DNA from: a virus
Direction: 5' to 3' (one strand)
DNA: 25,992 nt
IMG/VR virus record: IMGVR_UViG_3300011261_000105
Location: 1-25,992 of that record
The notes under the pieces are model-generated. The model was not told the origin of the DNA, did no database searches, and saw only the letters and a list, made by a program, of their open reading frames with translations. Shown here piece by piece: positions 4,660 to 14,141 of the stretch. A program made the position numbers and the translations under genes. Every line of letters starts with the position of its first letter. Position 1 is the first letter of the stretch.

Positions 4660-6423
4660 ATGACAACACCAAAGCTAAGAACATATCAAGAAAACCTGAA
4701 AGACGGTATTTACGAATCCATAAAAAAACAGCATAAAGGTATCGTTGCTGTTAGCCCTACTGGTTCGGGAAAGTCAAAAACTATGGGTTCCATGTGCTGT
4801 GATTTTATCGGTAATGGAAAACAAGTTGTATTTGTTGTGCATCGCCAAGAGCTGGTTAAACAGCTCTCAATCATGCTAGGAGAATATCAGCTACCTCATC
4901 AAATCATAGCGGCCAAACATACGATTAACGAATCAAAAATGGAGCATTTCCAGAACTTCGGACAATCGTATTTAAACCCGTTTGCTGATAATATTTATGT
5001 GTGCTCGGTTCAAACGCTTGCGTCAATGATTAAGAAAAATAACTGTACGTTAAAACCTGACGTTATATTCTTTGATGAAGGCCACCACGTAAGCGAGGGA
5101 TCGCTTTGGGGCGTAGTTCGTGAAGCGTTCGACAAATCTATAGCGTTGAAGTTTACTGCGTCACCTGAGCGATTAGATGGAAAGGGTTTAGGCGTTGGTC
5201 ATGGAGGGTATGCAACTGATATTGTAGTTGGCCCTTATGTCGATGATTTAATAGACGGCGGATATTTATCTGACTATATTGCTATTGTTCCTAGTGAACC
5301 GATAAACGTAACTGGATTAAGAGAAAGCAAAACCGGAGGAATGGCAGCGAAAGCGGCTAATGAGTTTTTTCAATCGAAAGGCGAGAAAGTTTGTGCTGAT
5401 TTACTGAAGCACTATTCTAAACATACGCCTCATAAACCAATGGTAGCCTATGCTGTAAATGTTAAAGCATCCGAGGGCATGGCCGATCAGTTCCGTAGTG
5501 CTGGATTTAATGCGGTAGCGATTAATGGCAACACTAAACAGTCTATTCGCAACAAGGCGCTTAAGGGTCTTGAAAACGGCGATATTGAAGTCGTATGTAA
5601 CGCTGATTTAATATCTGAGGGGTTTGACGTTCCAAACCTTGCGGCGGTCGGGTTGTGCCGACCAACCCAAAGCCTTGGATTGCACATTCAGCAAGTTGGA
5701 CGCCCTCTAAGGCCCCATGCTAGCAAAAAAGCCGCTTACATATACGATTGCGTAGGAAACATACAAAACCTTGAGCACTTCCCCTGTACGCGCCGTGAGT
5801 GGAGTTTAGAGGGCAAGAAAGGTCGCAAGAAAGAAGGCGACAAACACACCGAGAAAATCCGCAAATGCCCGTCATGTTTTGCAGAGTTCAGATATAAAAC
5901 CGTCCGTGACGCTTGCCCGTCATGCGGATATGTAACAACGCCAGAGGAAAATCAGTTATTCATTAAAGAAATTGAAATGAAGCAGATCACGCCTGAAGAG
6001 CTAAAGGAAATGCGTGATCTGCAAAGGGCAGAAACAAAACAAGCGCAGAATGCAGGCATTAGGAATGCTAAAACAGATCAAGAACTTGTACTGCTGGATA
6101 AAAAACTAGGTTTAAAACGTGGCGCTAGTGCGCATAAGCAGCGTGCAATAGAAGAAAAGAAAAAAGCTATGTCTCGATTAAATACTGCGATAAACTACTA
6201 TAAACAAAACGTGGCATGGGGAAGCCCTGAAGTGTTCGACCGTATTATGAATGACGTGTTCGAGGTTAGCGAGAAAGACGCTAGGAAATATGGCGCTGTT
6301 CGTGCTAACAGGTTGTGCGATACAATGCGTGAGTTTTTGGAGTTGCGAAACAGTCAGATTGAAGAACCGTATAGCTCGATTAACTATAAAATGAGTATGT
6401 TTAATGATATTGGTGGGTTTTAG
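4660..6423 (+). CDS. superfamily 2 DEAD/DEAH-type helicase with zinc ribbon
   Basis: A 587-residue phage helicase related to type III restriction/RadD-like enzymes. It starts MTTPKLRTYQ (Q-motif-like), then Walker A SPTGSGKSK (about 32-40), DEGH (139-142), motif III TASPERLDGKG (166-176), a helicase C domain with ISEGFDVPN (318-326) and QQVGRPLRP (344-352), and two CPSC pairs (403-406, 419-422) forming a zinc ribbon before a charged coiled-coil-like tail. It should use ATP to move on or remodel DNA. An in-frame ATG at 4642 exists, but a GGAGTG site favours 4660. The C-terminal domain may bind partners or DNA. Confidence 0.85.
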   Translation: MTTPKLRTYQENLKDGIYESIKKQHKGIVAVSPTGSGKSKTMGSMCCDFIGNGKQVVFVVHRQELVKQLSIMLGEYQLPHQIIAAKHTINESKMEHFQNFGQSYLNPFADNIYVCSVQTLASMIKKNNCTLKPDVIFFDEGHHVSEGSLWGVVREAFDKSIALKFTASPERLDGKGLGVGHGGYATDIVVGPYVDDLIDGGYLSDYIAIVPSEPINVTGLRESKTGGMAAKAANEFFQSKGEKVCADLLKHYSKHTPHKPMVAYAVNVKASEGMADQFRSAGFNAVAINGNTKQSIRNKALKGLENGDIEVVCNADLISEGFDVPNLAAVGLCRPTQSLGLHIQQVGRPLRPHASKKAAYIYDCVGNIQNLEHFPCTRREWSLEGKKGRKKEGDKHTEKIRKCPSCFAEFRYKTVRDACPSCGYVTTPEENQLFIKEIEMKQITPEELKEMRDLQRAETKQAQNAGIRNAKTDQELVLLDKKLGLKRGASAHKQRAIEEKKKAMSRLNTAINYYKQNVAWGSPEVFDRIMNDVFEVSEKDARKYGAVRANRLCDTMREFLELRNSQIEEPYSSINYKMSMFNDIGGF

Positions 6424-6452
6424 TTGATATTTTTTATTTAGTATGGTAATGT
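6424..6452 (+). promoter_or_regulatory. promoter candidate ahead of first cassette-like unit
   Basis: TTGATA and TAATGT with 17 bp between them begin immediately after the helicase stop codon. The element is very similar to the one at 10151-10179 ahead of the main cassette array, so both cassette regions may have a dedicated upstream promoter. Confidence 0.45.
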
Positions 6453-6472
6453 TTACGTCATAGGTAAATACA

Positions 6473-6508
6473 TATAACAACGAGCAGTCGGATGATTGCT
6501 TTGTTATA
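6473..6508 (+). other. short attC-like inverted repeat
   Basis: TATAACAA (6473-6480) and TTGTTATA (6501-6508) are perfect complements around an inner hairpin (AGCA/TGCT and TC/GA with one mismatch). At 36 bp it is shorter than known attC sites, but its right half (6486-6509) is nearly the same as the lone right half site at 10702-10725. An 11-bp direct repeat, CATAGGTAAAT, lies on both sides (6459-6469 and 6512-6522); the second copy supplies the ribosome site of the next gene. Confidence 0.5.
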
Positions 6509-6525
6509 AACCATAGGTAAATTTT

Positions 6526-6720
6526 ATGAAATGGATAGACTCAGAAGAGGAAATTAAACCACTTGTTGGACGTATAGTTCTTGCTTATTGTCCTAAGTGG
6601 TGTGATAGCGGATACCAAGTGTGCTATTTGGATGGCAAGGTATTTAGATACGACGAACAACCTAATGATGAATTTCATTCTTATGTGAATGAGTGGTCGA
6701 TATTTTTAGATGCTTACTAG
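6526..6720 (+). CDS. DUF551-like small protein in cassette-like unit
   Basis: A 64-residue acidic protein with KWIDSEEEIKPLVGRIVLAY near the start and VNEWSIFLDAY at the end, resembling the W...P..G..VL...V..W pattern of DUF551 proteins. The ATG at 6526 follows AGGTAAA. It lies between the short attC-like repeat (6473-6508) and a full attC-like site (6725-6791), so it reads as a gene cassette. Its relative at 999-1196 is in the phage leftward operon, which suggests cassette genes and phage genes come from the same pool. Function unknown. Confidence 0.55.
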   Translation: MKWIDSEEEIKPLVGRIVLAYCPKWCDSGYQVCYLDGKVFRYDEQPNDEFHSYVNEWSIFLDAY

Positions 6721-6724
6721 GCTT

Positions 6725-6791
6725 ATAACCCTAAGTTAATTAGCAGGAATGAGCTCAGCGTATGACTGTCGAATTGAACGCGTTGTTATAT
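6725..6791 (+). other. attC-like recombination site
   Basis: It starts ATAAC (6725-6729) five bases after a stop codon and ends GTTATAT (6785-6791). Inner arms GTT-AATT-x-G-CAG (about 6735-6746) and CTG-x-C-x-AATT-x-AAC (about 6766-6779) pair with single bases bulging from the right arm, the pattern seen in integron attC sites. The start codon of the next ORF (6762) lies inside it. Confidence 0.65.
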
Positions 6792-6980
6792 GGCGATTTT
6801 ACACCTAGTCAGCGAGATATAGATTTGTATGAACGTCTGGAATTGTATTACCGGCAAACGACAGACGAAATGGATAACAGGAAGGCTATGAGCTACTGGA
6901 AGGAGTTTAAGAGATGGTGTGCGGATCGTGGATACACACAAGAAGAGATTAACCGAGCTAAACGCAATGTGCGAATTTAG
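6762..6980 (+). CDS. hypothetical cassette-like protein (72 aa)
   Basis: Unrecognised. The first residues, MTVELNALLYG, are encoded by the right half of the attC-like site, and the distinctive body follows: DFTPSQRDIDLYERLELYY then a helical, charged C-terminus with FKRWCADRGYTQEEI. No strong ribosome site is seen, and no later ATG keeps the body intact, so an attC-encoded start is plausible. The frame ends TAG directly before CCATATAAC, a lone attC left half. Function unknown. Confidence 0.5.
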   Translation: MTVELNALLYGDFTPSQRDIDLYERLELYYRQTTDEMDNRKAMSYWKEFKRWCADRGYTQEEINRAKRNVRI

Positions 6981-6990
6981 CCATATAACA
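6981..6990 (+). other. lone attC left-half remnant
   Basis: CCATATAACA follows the stop codon of the preceding ORF exactly as at 11540 and 12791, where complete sites follow. Here no matching GTTAT right half occurs within the next 150 bases. It may mark the broken right edge of the first cassette-like unit. Confidence 0.35.
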
Positions 6991-7002
6991 TGAGTTTAAT
7001 AC

Positions 7003-7203
7003 ATGAAACGAAAAATAAGACGATTATCTGACAGATATGCAAAGCCAGTTGATGGAGCATATTGCACGATAAAAGATAATGACGGCGTTTGCTTGGAATG
7101 GGAATTTCAATGCAATGATGTGTTTGAATTAGCTAAAAAAGAAGGCGATATTATCGTTAATAAAGATGGGTCGATAGTTATTTACGATGATTGGAATGAG
7201 TGA
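7003..7203 (+). CDS. hypothetical small phage protein (66 aa)
   Basis: Unrecognised. Basic start (MKRKIRRLSDRYAKPVDG), then an acidic body with DNDGVCLEWEFQCNDVFEL and a beta-rich end (GDIIVNKDGSIVIYDDWNE). No clear Shine-Dalgarno sequence precedes the ATG at 7003. It ends TGA, followed by another in-frame TGA 6 bases on, and overlaps nothing. It starts a run of tightly packed small phage ORFs. Confidence 0.45.
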   Translation: MKRKIRRLSDRYAKPVDGAYCTIKDNDGVCLEWEFQCNDVFELAKKEGDIIVNKDGSIVIYDDWNE

Positions 7204-10701: not shown

Positions 10702-10725
10702 GTCGGATTGATTGCTTTGTTATAA
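10702..10725 (+). other. attC right-half site at the left edge of the cassette array
   Basis: The sequence from AGTCGG to GTTATAA matches the right half of the short site at 6486-6509, with one extra base. No ATAAC left half is found between it and the preceding stop codon. It may mark where the array joined the phage genome. Confidence 0.45.
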
Positions 10726-10747
10726 CGTAAACACAGGAAATAAAGAC

Positions 10748-10942
10748 ATGAAAGAGAAAGTTATCTTAGGCGTAATAGCTGTAGTGGTAGTAATTGGTTT
10801 AATTCTTGGAGGAAAGTATGTGCTAAGATTTTTTAACGCTGCAACTTTGCACACGCAGATAATTACACCAAAGGCAGGTGTGGAGTGTGTTGTTGTAAGT
10901 GCGTCAGACTCGACCTCTGTTGATTGCTGGAAGGCGTTATAA
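10748..10942 (+). CDS. cassette 1: small membrane-anchored protein
   Basis: A 64-residue protein. Residues about 5-23 form a hydrophobic helix (VILGVIAVVVVIGLILGG), an uncleaved anchor or signal peptide, followed by a polar domain with ITPKAGVECVVVSASDSTSV and a final DCWKAL. The two cysteines (EC and DC) could form a disulfide in the periplasm. The ATG at 10748 follows AGGAAA. Its stop codon TAA lies inside the ATAAC box of the following attC-like site. Function unknown. Confidence 0.6.
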   Translation: MKEKVILGVIAVVVVIGLILGGKYVLRFFNAATLHTQIITPKAGVECVVVSASDSTSVDCWKAL

Positions 10943-11016
10943 CCTAGAGGTAAAACGCGATGACTGAGCGAGTAGAACGAGCGAAAGAAGAGTCGGATTT
11001 GACCGAATTGTTATGT
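10939..11016 (+). other. attC-like site 1
   Basis: ATAAC (10939-10943) overlaps the stop of cassette 1 and GTTATGT (11010-11016) closes the site. Inner arms pair partly (GGT..AAA and ACT with AGT..TTTGACC). The left arm contains GAGG nine bases before the ATG at 10960, so this site supplies both ribosome site and start codon to the next cassette ORF. Confidence 0.65.
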
Positions 11017-11220
11017 GTTGCGCGGACAGTTGATTTGCCTGATTGGGCAACACATGTAGCTGTTAGAAATGACGGTAGCAAGGCAGAGCCAGCAGCATGG
11101 ATAGAAAGATCAAAAGATTACTTGGATGAAGACCCTTCCCAGCTTGGCGAACACTGTTGGGCTGGTAGCTATAAACATTACTACTGGACGTTTATAGAAC
11201 GAGCGCAATTAAACACATAA
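10960..11220 (+). CDS. cassette 2: protein with PDWATH motif
   Basis: An 86-residue protein. The first 20 or so residues (MTERVERAKEESDLTELLCV) are encoded by the attC-like site; the body follows with LPDWATHVAVRNDG, AAWIERSKDYLDE and a C-terminal HCWAGSYKHYYWTFIER. The P-x-W-A-T-H-x-A..W pattern resembles the APDNATH and GATHYSES repeats in the phage protein at 24685, which points to a phage-type origin. An internal start just before LPDWATH cannot be excluded. The stop TAA is part of the next ATAAC box. Confidence 0.55.
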   Translation: MTERVERAKEESDLTELLCVARTVDLPDWATHVAVRNDGSKAEPAAWIERSKDYLDEDPSQLGEHCWAGSYKHYYWTFIERAQLNT

Positions 11221-11280
11221 CCACGCGCTAATTTGAGCGAGTGAAACGAGATTCAGAATTAAGCGCCTTGTTATTTGGCG
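11213..11280 (+). repeat. 68-bp perfect direct repeat (copy 1; copy 2 at 12189-12256)
   Basis: The two copies are identical across the entire attC-like site and diverge at the next base (C versus T). The ORFs on both sides of each copy are unrelated, so the duplicated unit is the recombination site itself. Confidence 0.9.
11217..11276 (+). other. attC-like site 2
   Basis: ATAAC (11217-11221) and GTTAT (11270-11274) are the outer boxes. Inner arms 11225-11236 and 11253-11266 pair as GCGCT/AGCGC, AATT/AATT and TGA/TCA, leaving G11256 and A11261 unpaired on one arm only. A 16-base spacer forms the loop. Bulged bases confined to one strand are the classic signal that orients integrase on a folded attC. 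Confidence 0.75.
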
Positions 11281-11294
11281 CGGGAGAGATAGCA

Positions 11295-11546
11295 GTGAAT
11301 ACAGACTCTACTTTTCGTGAGATTGTCGTGAGCCAGGGCGGTTTGACTCGCCGCCAAAAAGCGGAGCTTGAGAATAGATACATTCGCGAGTGCAAGGGTT
11401 GCACAGGTTCTGAATGCGACTCGTGCGGTGGCTCTGGAGTTCGCAAGAAGTGCGATTCTCGGCAGTGCCTAGAGCATGGTTGCGGCGGTTACGGCAATTG
11501 CGAAGTGACTAGTCGAGAAATTACTGAGCTGTTAGCGACCATATAA
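11295..11546 (+). CDS. cassette 3: cysteine-rich zinc-finger-like protein
   Basis: About 83 residues. The centre is cysteine-dense: ECKGCTGSECDSCGGSG, then KKCDSRQCLEHGCGGYGNCE, resembling a DnaJ-type CxxCxGxG zinc domain with about ten cysteines. The GTG at 11295 is preferred because a GGGAGAGA site lies just upstream; a longer form starting at a GTG inside attC site 2 (11241) would add an attC-encoded leader (MKRDSELSALLFG). The final residues, EITELLATI, run into the next ATAAC box. Likely metal-binding; partner unknown. Confidence 0.6.
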   Translation: MNTDSTFREIVVSQGGLTRRQKAELENRYIRECKGCTGSECDSCGGSGVRKKCDSRQCLEHGCGGYGNCEVTSREITELLATI

Positions 11547-11601
11547 CCCACGGCTTAGCCGATGGAGTGGAACGACAGTCGGATATAGCCGATTGTTATG
11601 T
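11543..11601 (+). other. attC-like site 3
   Basis: ATAAC (11543-11547) overlaps the stop of cassette 3; GTTATGT ends the site (11595-11601). Inner arms 11551-11562 and 11579-11591 pair as CGGCT/AGCCG, TA/TA and CCGA/TCGG with T11586 extrahelical and one mismatch (11558 with 11583). Confidence 0.7.
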
Positions 11602-11622
11602 GTGAATTATGGGATTGATGAA

Positions 11623-11877
11623 ATGATACCGAAAGATAATGATACCCCTGTTGAAACTTATGAAAAAGAATACTTCGGATGCAAAGTTAAGGTTTGGAGG
11701 ATTAAGGGTCCATACTGGGGGAGCCACCCATGGAGGTTTTGCATAACTCACAATGGAAAAACTCACAATTTTACGGGGGTGCCAAATTACTGCATTTCAA
11801 AGATGCAGGCTCTTAAGCGTGCTTGGTGGAGATCTAGGTGGCTCGATAGCGGCGAGTGGGATAAACACTACACATAA
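11623..11877 (+). CDS. cassette 4: hypothetical aromatic-rich protein
   Basis: About 84 residues from the ATG at 11623 (a TTG at 11593 inside the attC site would add ten). It is rich in tryptophan and tyrosine: VKVWRIKGPYWGSHPWRF, then THNFTGVPNYCISKMQALKR and WWRSRWLDSGEW. The alternating pattern suggests a small beta-rich protein with a basic, aromatic surface. No family recognised. The stop codon is inside the next attC-like site. Confidence 0.55.
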   Translation: MIPKDNDTPVETYEKEYFGCKVKVWRIKGPYWGSHPWRFCITHNGKTHNFTGVPNYCISKMQALKRAWWRSRWLDSGEWDKHYT

Positions 11878-11954
11878 CCTAAGCCACAGATGCAAATAAC
11901 GCATTTGTGAGCGAATCGAGCTGTTATTTGTCTTTTGATGGCAGTAGTTATGTG
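11871..11954 (+). other. attC-like site 4, nested
   Basis: Two sets of boxes are nested. The outer pair is CACATAAC (11871-11878) with GTTATGTG (11947-11954), the inner pair CAAATAAC (11893-11900) with GTTATTTG (11923-11930); both are perfect complements. A separate hairpin, CACAGATGC with GCATTTGTG, spans 11885-11909 and competes with the inner pair. It may be one long site with a structured spacer, or one attC inserted into another. Confidence 0.6.
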
Positions 11955-11978
11955 ACGATAATTAAATGAGAAATAAAA

Positions 11979-12188
11979 ATGAATTTAGAATTAGAGCGTA
12001 AATGTAAAAAATGCAATGATACTGGCTGGTTGTGTGGCTGTGATTTAACGAAACCTTGGGAGGGCGCTGGTAATTGTGGGTGCGGAGAATCAGGAAAGAA
12101 TTGTATTTGCAATAAAAATGGAGATTTCGGCACTGACTACAAAATCACGCATTCAATAAATAAAGATGAAATCACAGCGATACACTAG
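11979..12188 (+). CDS. cassette 5: cysteine-rich zinc-ribbon-like protein
   Basis: A 69-residue protein with nine cysteines, seven of them in the clusters RKCKKCNDTGWLCGCD and GNCGCGESGKNCIC, followed by a polar tail ending KDEITAIH. The CxxCxGxG-like spacing resembles cassette 3 although the sequences differ, so two of seven cassettes encode small cysteine-rich metal-binding-type proteins. The ATG at 11979 lies in an A-rich stretch without a clear ribosome site. It ends TAG just before attC-like site 5. Confidence 0.6.
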   Translation: MNLELERKCKKCNDTGWLCGCDLTKPWEGAGNCGCGESGKNCICNKNGDFGTDYKITHSINKDEITAIH

Positions 12189-12192
12189 ACAC

Positions 12193-12252
12193 ATAACCAC
12201 GCGCTAATTTGAGCGAGTGAAACGAGATTCAGAATTAAGCGCCTTGTTATTT
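12193..12252 (+). other. attC-like site 5 (identical to site 2)
   Basis: It has the same sequence and fold as the site at 11217-11276, inside the 68-bp repeat 12189-12256. Here the attC-encoded frame from the GTG at 12217 reads MKRDSELSALLFGVGR and then stops, just before the ATG of cassette 6 at 12270. Confidence 0.75.
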
Positions 12253-12269
12253 GGCGTGGGTAGGTAGAA

Positions 12270-12551
12270 ATGGAAGCTGTTTATGAATTGTCTTTTCTTG
12301 ATTTTGACGACAATTATTTTGCTATAGGGCTTTTCAAGAGCCTTGGAGAAGCAAATCAGTTTGTAGATTCAGCGATTGAAAGTGGCGATCAGCTTGCTTG
12401 GGATGTTGAAGATAACGAACGCCTTCAGATAGTTAAGTATCAATTTGGGAAGGGCGATAATCTCCGCATAATTGTTCGCACTATAACCCGTACTCCAATC
12501 TATATCGAAGACGAAGATGACTATACGCTAAAGGTTGTAAGTGACAAATAA
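12270..12551 (+). CDS. cassette 6: hypothetical acidic protein
   Basis: A 93-residue acidic protein, MEAVYELSFLDFDDNYFAIG, then a helix (SLGEANQFVDSAIESGDQLAW) and beta strands (LRIIVRTITRTPIYI). The layout looks like a small alpha/beta domain. The ribosome site is GGTAGGT just before the ATG at 12270, in the base run that follows the attC-like site. The stop TAA is part of the ATAAC box of the next site. No function recognised. Confidence 0.6.
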   Translation: MEAVYELSFLDFDDNYFAIGLFKSLGEANQFVDSAIESGDQLAWDVEDNERLQIVKYQFGKGDNLRIIVRTITRTPIYIEDEDDYTLKVVSDK

Positions 12552-12609
12552 CCCCAGCGGTAATTTGAACGAGCACCGCGAGTGTCAGAATTTAACGCCG
12601 TTGTTATAT
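12548..12609 (+). other. attC-like site 6
   Basis: ATAAC at 12548-12552, GTTATAT at 12603-12609. Inner arms pair as TGA/TCA and AATT/AATT with G12588 unpaired, then GCG with CGC less perfectly. Spacer and arms are close relatives of sites 2 and 5. Confidence 0.65.
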
Positions 12610-12630
12610 GGCAGATACAGGAGAAGAAGA

Positions 12631-12798
12631 ATGGATTATATGATTATTGTAGGTCTTGAATACGCGATATATTCAAAGATACTTAAATGTGAAAGAAGTG
12701 GCCAGAATTTAATATTTAATAATATAGAAGAGGCAGAAAAGAAAGCAGATGAAATAAGAAAAGCAGCTGGCAGTAATGTTAGGGTTGTAGCCATATAA
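12631..12798 (+). CDS. cassette 7: hypothetical small protein (55 aa)
   Basis: A small protein, MDYMIIVGLEYAIYSKILKC, then an acidic helix (IEEAEKKADEIRKAAGSN) and a final VRVVAI strand: a plausible beta-alpha-beta mini-fold. The start at 12631 is set by an AGGAGAAG site about 6 bases upstream. The frame is open back through the attC-like site, which would add NLTPLLYG and more, but the strong site argues for the short form. The stop TAA lies in the next ATAAC box. Confidence 0.6.
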   Translation: MDYMIIVGLEYAIYSKILKCERSGQNLIFNNIEEAEKKADEIRKAAGSNVRVVAI

Positions 12799-12853
12799 CA
12801 AGTAGTTCAACGACAGCGAGTTACGAGTCTGTTCGATGAACGTAGTGTTATGA
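12795..12853 (+). other. attC-like site 7, right end of the array
   Basis: ATAAC (12795-12799), GTTATGA (12847-12853). Arms 12803-12816 and 12829-12844 pair as TA/TA, GTTCA/TGAAC, CGA/TCG and CAG/CTG, leaving G12842 and T12832 unpaired on the right arm and one A-A mismatch. This is one of the cleanest attC-like folds in the window. Confidence 0.75.
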
Positions 12854-12870
12854 ATTAAATGGGATAAATT

Positions 12871-13059
12871 ATGAAAACTTTAGATGATTACGCAATTTCT
12901 GCGATGCAGGGACTTCTTTCAAGTGACGTTTCAGTGTGGGGTACGGTTGAAGAATACGCAGAATGTGCATACGACATGGCAGAAGCAATGATTAAAGAAT
13001 CACGCAAGCGCATAGAATCACAAGAACAACGACACACAGTAGAAACAACAGAGGATTGA
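12871..13059 (+). CDS. hypothetical phage protein (62 aa)
   Basis: A helical protein, MKTLDDYAISAMQGLLSSDV, with ECAYDMAEAMIKESRKR near the end, a pattern common in small phage proteins (Y-x-x-A-x-A-M). It sits between the last attC-like site and the clamp gene and has no attC-like site of its own after it, so I take it as a phage gene rather than a cassette. The TGA stop at 13057-13059 lies just before the clamp start and may couple the two. Confidence 0.5.
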   Translation: MKTLDDYAISAMQGLLSSDVSVWGTVEEYAECAYDMAEAMIKESRKRIESQEQRHTVETTED

Positions 13060-13061
13060 AA

Positions 13062-13484
13062 ATGAAATTTACAGTAACTCAGCATGATTTGAGCAATGCA
13101 ATGCAGTTCGTTGCTAGTGCGATTGAACGAAAATCAACGATGGATATTATGACTAACGTGTTGATCACAACTGACATGTATAGTATTACGTTGTCAGGTA
13201 CTAATACAGAAGTTGAAAAACGTATTACAATCACTGCGAAGGTTGATGAACAAGGCAGTATCACCGTTCCGGCGGCAAAGTTATCTGATTTTGCTAAAAA
13301 CGCAGATAAAGACAAAGACATTAAATTCACGTTAAAAGACACGAAAGGTATCATTAATTCCGGTAAATCTCGATGGAGCTTATCAACACTATCGGCCGAT
13401 ATTTATCCTGAATTCATGAGCGTTGAAGAATCACAATCGCTATCAGTTGAAATCACAAAACTAATAGATGCAATTTCACGCTGA
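13062..13484 (+). CDS. dnaN: DNA polymerase III beta sliding clamp, N-terminal part
   Basis: 140 residues from MKFTVTQHDLSNAMQFVASA, with IMTNVLITTD (compare ILxNVLLxxx in DnaN), ITVPAAKLSDFAK and a YPEF motif, matching domain I of the bacterial beta clamp. The ATG at 13062 has a GAGG site. Translation meets an in-frame TGA (13482-13484) right after LIDAISR, close to the boundary between domains I and II. The same frame carries the rest of the clamp (13485-14141). The clamp rings DNA and tethers polymerase and repair proteins. Readthrough, a split two-chain clamp or a mutation are all possible. Confidence 0.82.
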   Translation: MKFTVTQHDLSNAMQFVASAIERKSTMDIMTNVLITTDMYSITLSGTNTEVEKRITITAKVDEQGSITVPAAKLSDFAKNADKDKDIKFTLKDTKGIINSGKSRWSLSTLSADIYPEFMSVEESQSLSVEITKLIDAISR

Positions 13485-13493
13485 TCAACAACA

Positions 13494-14141
13494 ATGGCTC
13501 AAAAAGACGTACGTTATTATTTAAACGGCATGTTATTTGATGTTAAAGACGGCAAATTAACTGTTGTAGCAACTGACGGACACCGTTTAAGCTGTTATTC
13601 TATGGATACAGATGCAGAATTTGAACGGCAGGCTATTATTCCGCGCTCTGCTGTATTAGACATCCTGAAAATGATCACTAAAGCACCGGACGCTAAGATT
13701 ATTATAGGTCGCGATAATGTCAAAGTAACTGTTGGCAACATGGTTATGTATACAAAACTAATCGACGGAAAATTCACAGATTACAAACGTGTAATTCCGA
13801 GCGACTTAACTATCAATGCTGATATGAATACTGAAGAGTTGCGCAATTCTGTAAAGCGTACATTGCCGCTATCTAACCAATATTTTGCTACTGAGTTTGT
13901 TTTTAATGACGGACAGTTGACGATCAACGCAACTAACACTAACCAAGAAAAAGCCGTTGAAGAAATACCAGTATCAAAATCAGGCGATGACATTTCAATC
14001 GGGTTTAATGGTATGTACGTATCTGATTTGTTAGGTTCAATCGACAGTGAAAATGTAGTGTTTCAAATGAAAAACTCAGCATCAAGCGCATTAGTTGAAG
14101 ATGGTGATTTCATCGGCGTTCTTATGCCGTTGAGAATCTGA
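13494..14141 (+). CDS. dnaN: DNA polymerase III beta sliding clamp, C-terminal part
   Basis: 215 residues from MAQKDVRYYLNGMLFD, with VVATDGHRLSCYSM (DnaN hallmark TDGHRL), KLIDGKFTDYKRVIP (compare KLVDGRFPDYRRVLP in E. coli) and a final MPLRI. This covers domains II and III, including the peptide-binding pocket region. It is in the same frame as the N-terminal part; only the TGA at 13482 separates them. The ATG at 13494 has no Shine-Dalgarno sequence, so production needs reinitiation or UGA readthrough. Together the parts are about 360 residues, normal for DnaN. Confidence 0.85.
   Translation: MAQKDVRYYLNGMLFDVKDGKLTVVATDGHRLSCYSMDTDAEFERQAIIPRSAVLDILKMITKAPDAKIIIGRDNVKVTVGNMVMYTKLIDGKFTDYKRVIPSDLTINADMNTEELRNSVKRTLPLSNQYFATEFVFNDGQLTINATNTNQEKAVEEIPVSKSGDDISIGFNGMYVSDLLGSIDSENVVFQMKNSASSALVEDGDFIGVLMPLRI

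Follow-up and report, generated by a model that had tools for sequence, protein, structure and literature searches.

Integron-type gene cassettes with inverted attC sites in a phage genome fragment, probably mobilized by a host integrase

The IMG/VR virus record IMGVR_UViG_3300011261_000105 was analyzed over its full length of 25,992 bases (positions 1 to 25,992, hereafter the window) with a focus on an array of integron-type gene cassettes at 10.7-12.9 kb, between the genes for PhoH and the sliding clamp. The window derives from a marine phage and has a clear phage gene content comprising an exonuclease, a helicase, PhoH, a sliding clamp, a DNA transfer protein, a primase, head morphogenesis, a methyltransferase, and a thymidylate synthase. 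The genes around the array are on the + strand, as are the seven small open reading frames (ORFs) of the array, which are accompanied by seven full attC-like sites and one half-site. An earlier inspection of the sequence by a model without database searches (the sequence-only reading) had described seven short ORFs alternating with attC-like sites, outer ATAAC/GTTAT boxes, and ORF stop codons fused to the left box. All of this was borne out, with the half-site as an addition.

For the identification of the sites two covariance models were used. Model R1 was constructed from 16 sites that do not belong to this phage group (from the integron of Shewanella phage M16-3, from integrons on the chromosomes of Neptuniibacter and its relatives, and from the cluster of Tetrasphaera phage TJE1), and model R2 from nine phage sites, among them the array site A2 but not A1, A3, or A6. 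The array begins with a half attC of the B type (A0; about 10702..10728, - strand), which is present as the right half in the ORF sense with no left half in the window and is identical over 25 of 25 nt to a full B-type site in the IMG/VR contig L003. Cassette ORF 1 (10748..10942, +; 64 aa), in which one membrane-like hydrophobic segment was read from the sequence, is followed by A1 (10937..11016, -; R1 8.3 bits, R2 20.8 bits), and ORF 2 (11008..11220, +; up to 70 aa, start codon uncertain) by A2 (11215..11276, -; R1 23.8 bits, E=1e-3), which is identical over 71 of 71 nt to a site of the temperate phage L001. ORF 3 (11295..11546, +; 83 aa, cysteine-rich) precedes A3 (11541..11601, -; R1 32.0 bits, E=1.1e-5), and ORF 4 (11593..11877, +; up to 94 aa) precedes A4 (11872..11929, -; R1 23.2 bits, E=1.5e-3 for a match at 11872-11953, R2 partial only). 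Downstream of ORF 5 (11979..12188, +; 69 aa, cysteine-rich) lies A5 (12191..12252, -; R1 23.8 bits, E=1e-3), a near-copy of A2 with 97% identity over 75 nt. ORF 6 (12270..12551, +; 93 aa) is followed by A6 (12546..12609, -; R2 49.6 bits, E=7e-10), and ORF 7 (12631..12798, +; 55 aa) by the nearly symmetric, conserved terminal site A7 (12793..12853; R1 17.3 bits on + and 7.7 bits on -). None of the cassette ORFs had a convincing family in Pfam or PHROG, a search of 116 genomes of the Neptuniibacter family and of phage records gave no relative of ORFs 4 and 6, and Rfam gave no match to anything in the window.

Model R1 recovered five of the seven array sites, namely A3, A2, A5, A4 (E from 1e-5 to 1.5e-3), and A7 (E=0.038), with a weak score for A1 and a partial match for A6. 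Outside its training set R2 detected A6 with the E-value given above and A3 with E=1e-7. The covariance search suggested by the sequence-only reading was thus positive for five sites with R1 and for A6 with R2, while A1 remained weak. The sites have paired R and L arms with an unpaired spacer according to the covariance model, and the extrahelical bases of all seven are mainly on one arm. Compared with the strict RYYYAAC/GTTRRRY boxes every site has AAC and GTT, and the sequence GTTATNN departs from the RRR positions, as do many host chromosomal sites. Single-strand folding was significant for A2, A3, and A7 only, with the + strand of A3 folding into an attC-like stem (z -3.0). Because R1, trained on integrons elsewhere, recovers five of the seven, the array sites are taken to be genuine attC.

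The seven sites lie within 2.2 kb without an intI close by, and the array accordingly falls under the definition of a cluster of attC sites lacking an integron integrase (CALIN), which asks for two or more attC inside a few kb of sequence and for the absence of intI from the vicinity. No tyrosine recombinase or intI was found in the 26-kb record, which is a fragment of a phage genome, and the window does not hold a complete integron (intI plus attI), intI being absent from the fragment. The claim of an attC array inside a phage without IntI is hence supported by the R1 matches, the phage genes, and the lack of a tyrosine recombinase in the record. Such clusters with small ORFs and without IntI have been described from the phages TJE1, P12002L, and Pseudoalteromonas H101, and five of six tested phage attC sites were active with IntI1 (Qi et al., 2023; PMC9892861). 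Phage-borne attC clusters are therefore already known and the array as such adds one more CALIN, while the proposal that a host integrase can use phage cassettes had already been published with experiments and is not new. The attC sites reported for Pseudoalteromonas phage H101 (PH101) were not recovered by our box-based scan.

The polarity of the sites sets the array apart from canonical cassettes. In canonical attC, as seen in Shewanella and Neptuniibacter integrons, the bulged bases are on the left arm of the gene-sense strand, whereas those of the window sites are on the right arm in the ORF sense. The sequence-only reading was hence correct in placing the unpaired bases mainly on one arm, but the arm is the reverse of the canonical one. 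R1 places every window site except A7 on the - strand, with the ORFs on the + strand, and R2 agrees. An attC downstream of its ORF and in the same polarity, as in a canonical cassette, was not found in the array except possibly at A7. It follows from the flipped polarity that the strand expected to recombine is the ORF-sense strand, and not the bottom strand that had been named as the one to fold; of the predicted folding, the significant part concerned A2, A3, and A7 and failed to extend clearly to A1 and A6.

The same inversion was found in the IMG/VR contigs L001, L002/L003, and L004/L005 and in the prophages L128 (Neptuniibacter pectenicola), L129, L130, L132, and L146, which with the window make nine phage elements that have common hosts and partly common ancestry and do not represent nine independent events. 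R1-matched sites other than those of the A7 type are antisense to the ORFs throughout the window, L001-L005, L128, L129, and L130, and a strong match of this kind is also present in L146. An exact attC core did not occur in GTDB genomes, and a one-mismatch attC pattern gave no match in 11 Neptuniibacter genomes, after which the prophages were detected by covariance model. Most of the other elements with inverted attC are from Neptuniibacter. Elsewhere in the family and order the upstream ORF was in sense at 26 of 27 R2 matches (prophage context not checked at every site), the remaining match resting on a 67-codon ORF, and the sole clear antisense match outside Neptuniibacter belongs to a prophage (L134/L146). 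This antisense attC (L146 2094-2171; 37.4 bits with the independent model) is located in a prophage whose bacterial genome belongs to the same family but is a different one, so the inversion extends beyond Neptuniibacter. The host integrons L103 and L110, which have IntI, show canonical polarity. Taken together, the sequence comparison suggests that the inverted layout is typical of Neptuniibacter phages and prophages and absent from the chromosomal sites of the same search.

The boundaries of the exchanged unit were determined by an all-versus-all comparison of cassettes, which yielded two pairs alike over their whole length. The L001 cassette R2>R3 and its L002 counterpart are 97.6% identical over the full length, with a similarity of 0.72 between their upstream attC (including a 7-nt indel) and of 0.19 between their downstream attC; for the pair from L128 and L002 (90.2%) the respective values are 0.90 and 0.16, compared with a median of 0.27 for random attC pairs. 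In the alignments the homology reaches into the left box (ATAAC) of the following site, where it ends, and a third, partial pair (L001/L004) likewise diverges at the downstream box. The leader GTTATTTGGCGCGGGAGATAGAAA, which contains a ribosome-binding motif, follows one attC type ahead of different ORFs. Since the cassette pairs share the upstream and not the downstream attC, and since homology ends at ATAAC, the unit is an attC with the ORF that follows it. As judged from these alignments, the mobile unit is composed of attC, ribosome site, and ORF, which is the reverse of the canonical cassette, in which an ORF and its downstream attC move together; in the relatives it is the upstream attC that travels with the ORF. 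The edge of the unit coincides with the position that the R' crossover box would take in a flipped attC. The statement that the array has exactly the build of integron cassettes was hence wrong with respect to both the orientation of the sites and the unit exchanged.

Cassette turnover is evident between L001 and L002, two related temperate phages. Between flanks that are 95% and 82% identical, L001 has 627 bases (989-1615) and L002 has 1,573 bases (5534-7106) with no cassette in common, and one cassette occupies different loci in the two phages. The gain and loss of cassettes expected in related phages was thus seen for this pair.

These results bear on the possibility that the array is an ordinary CALIN made of canonical cassettes (ORF plus downstream attC) taken from the chromosomal integron of the host. 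It would agree with the reality of the attC sites, with the presence of chromosomal integrons with IntI in Neptuniibacter, and with the published phage CALINs. It is contradicted by the inversion of attC in all nine elements and by the exchange of attC with the following ORF, given that the host integrons and the TJE1 cluster are canonical in polarity, and by the absence of the two searched cassette ORFs from the 116 family genomes. We regard this explanation as quite improbable, and ordinary captured cassettes were discarded on the grounds of polarity and exchange unit.

The integrons on the chromosomes of Neptuniibacter and its relatives (IntI, TIGR02249) share with the phage sites the attC architecture, the TAACAA start, the one-arm bulges, and the hosts, but their attC are read with the ORFs and have a GGC/AGC spacer before GTTA versus mostly GTG/TGG in the phage sites. 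Integron pieces likewise occur in the temperate Vibrio anguillarum phage Va_90-11-286_p16 and in Shewanella phage M16-3, which unlike the window have IntI and canonical arrays. The phage CALINs of PMC9892861 resemble the window array in being attC clusters with small ORFs and no IntI; the TJE1 cluster differs in being canonical by the polarity measure used here, and for these CALINs neither inverted attC as a rule nor a conserved terminal site or an attC-plus-ORF unit was described. No report of phage cassettes with inverted attC was found in the literature searched, the coverage of which was incomplete. The inverted, 5'-attached attC build and its restriction to phages accordingly look new.

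In known integrons the polarity of attC ensures the insertion of captured genes in the orientation of their expression. Phages and prophages consistently show the opposite arrangement, unlike the chromosomal sites recovered by the same search. Provided that the units do move, phages would have an exchange currency of their own built on host integron enzymes. Tools that assign an ORF to the attC behind it would easily misread such units. The identical attC in unrelated phages and the full turnover of cassettes between conserved flanks make phage-to-phage gene exchange within one host directly testable, and this in a culturable marine genus.

Because the 71-nt identical attC is common to the window phage and L001, the host of the window phage is likely Neptuniibacter or a close relative. 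L001 adjoins dusA, with a DusA protein 100% identical in amino acid sequence to that of N. pectenicola. The region 11874-13693 of L001 belongs to a temperate phage with its integrase next to dusA, i.e., a dusA-integrating Neptuniibacter prophage, and L128 (6780-12886) is an N. pectenicola prophage at a tRNA gene, probably tRNA-Cys as read from the shared sequence. L128 has two attC arrays, one on each side of the integrase and excisionase genes. Genes similar to cytosine methyltransferases were observed beside or near attC sites in L002 (12429-13364), L128 (11996-12886), and L132 (3746-5482). IntI is intact in the Neptuniibacter genomes G004, G005, G010, and G011 and is split across frames in G001 (G001:C24:1810-2762) and G002 (G002:C31:2285-3239).

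The broken IntI of some hosts, together with the frequent position of prophage arrays next to a phage integrase (L001, L128, L130, L132), could indicate that a different recombinase takes the place of IntI in cassette movement, e.g., XerC/D or a phage integrase with attC-like sites as its substrate. This is very improbable in our estimate, as the integrases differ among elements with the same site type, the site structure matches that of IntI substrates, and the window, although only a fragment, lacks a tyrosine recombinase.

We favor with some confidence, on the basis of sequence comparison, a phage-adapted CALIN of integron-type cassettes with inverted attC that is probably moved by the IntI of the host; the recombinase and the direction of transfer, like the role of A7 and the host of the window phage, we infer. 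Under this model the mobile unit would consist of attC, a leader with a ribosome site, and an ORF, with the ATAA of the following box as its end, which would place the TAA stop of the ORF at the crossover. An IntI supplied in trans by the host would insert and remove the units; its substrate would be the folded ORF-sense strand, which corresponds to the "bottom" strand of the flipped attC. Units that bring a ribosome site along and have a TAA at the junction would suit a phage operon; they would be expressed by read-through from phage transcription and would be passed around between phages and prophages with common hosts, in a pool separate from the chromosomal integron. In a wider form, which we consider possible but put at less than even, phages of marine Gammaproteobacteria may have a cassette system of their own, distinct from the chromosomal integron, with a turned attC and a ribosome site 5' of the gene, a near-symmetric entry site, a borrowed integrase, and transfer between unrelated phages of one host.

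The terminal sites are part of this model, in which the A7-type site would be the resident entry point. Almost every array ends in a site of this type, as is the case for the two arrays of L001, the left one of L002, that of L004, and the two of L128, and this 3'-terminal location is probably the point of entry. The bulges of A7 point to inverted polarity and R1 prefers the + strand, i.e., the ORF sense; our first reading of A7 as inverted like the other sites, which was based on the bulges, was dropped since R1 favors the other strand, and its polarity is considered ambiguous. A lone A7-type site without cassettes is present in L005 (6572-6633) and is possibly an empty entry site.

Several observations weigh against the favored model. 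Recombination itself was nowhere observed, and the exchange unit is defined by two full pairs and one partial pair, none of them from the window. No direct relative of the window phage was found by megablast, by blastn with the array, or with the PhoH or DNA transfer protein, so cassette gain and loss could not be assessed for the window phage itself. Intact IntI is not universal in Neptuniibacter, the N. pectenicola copy lying in two frames. The preference of R1 for an ORF-sense polarity of A7 does not fit a simple role as landing site, and in L003 (358-517) a further attC-like site lies 48 bases beyond an A7-type site, which is an exception to array closing. A2 and A5 have 4 nt between their bulges instead of T-N6-G, the spacing of extrahelical bases that IntI enzymes excise best (PMC3053210). 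Folding is weak for A1, A6, and an additional site at 6723-6791, and truncated sites exist (A0, 6472-6509, L4_a), which speaks against an active system.

Poorly folding and truncated sites would be expected if the sites were attC-derived repeats that serve another role, such as hairpins in 5' leaders or spacers over which phage recombination would shuffle genes, with site-specific recombination no longer active. An attC and a leader with a ribosome-binding motif do precede each ORF, and an exonuclease VIII-like recombination gene is among the genes of the window phage. Homologous recombination, on the other hand, does not explain breakpoints at a box of 4-7 nt with unrelated sequence beyond, and the paired arms and bulges have been kept despite sequence divergence. 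We judge such a change of role to be unlikely.

Beyond the region named in the sequence-only reading, two further sites flank a 64-aa ORF (6526..6720, +). The upstream one is a truncated B-type attC (6472..6509; R1 about 12 bits on both strands), and the downstream one an attC antisense to the ORF (6723..6791, -; R1 28.6 bits, E=7.5e-5). The segment 6472-6791 is probably a solo cassette outside the main array. Downstream of the array, the sliding-clamp gene (13056-14141) is split by an in-frame TGA (13482-13484), which may be a nonsense mutation, recoding, or a sequencing error, and both halves match phrog_947.

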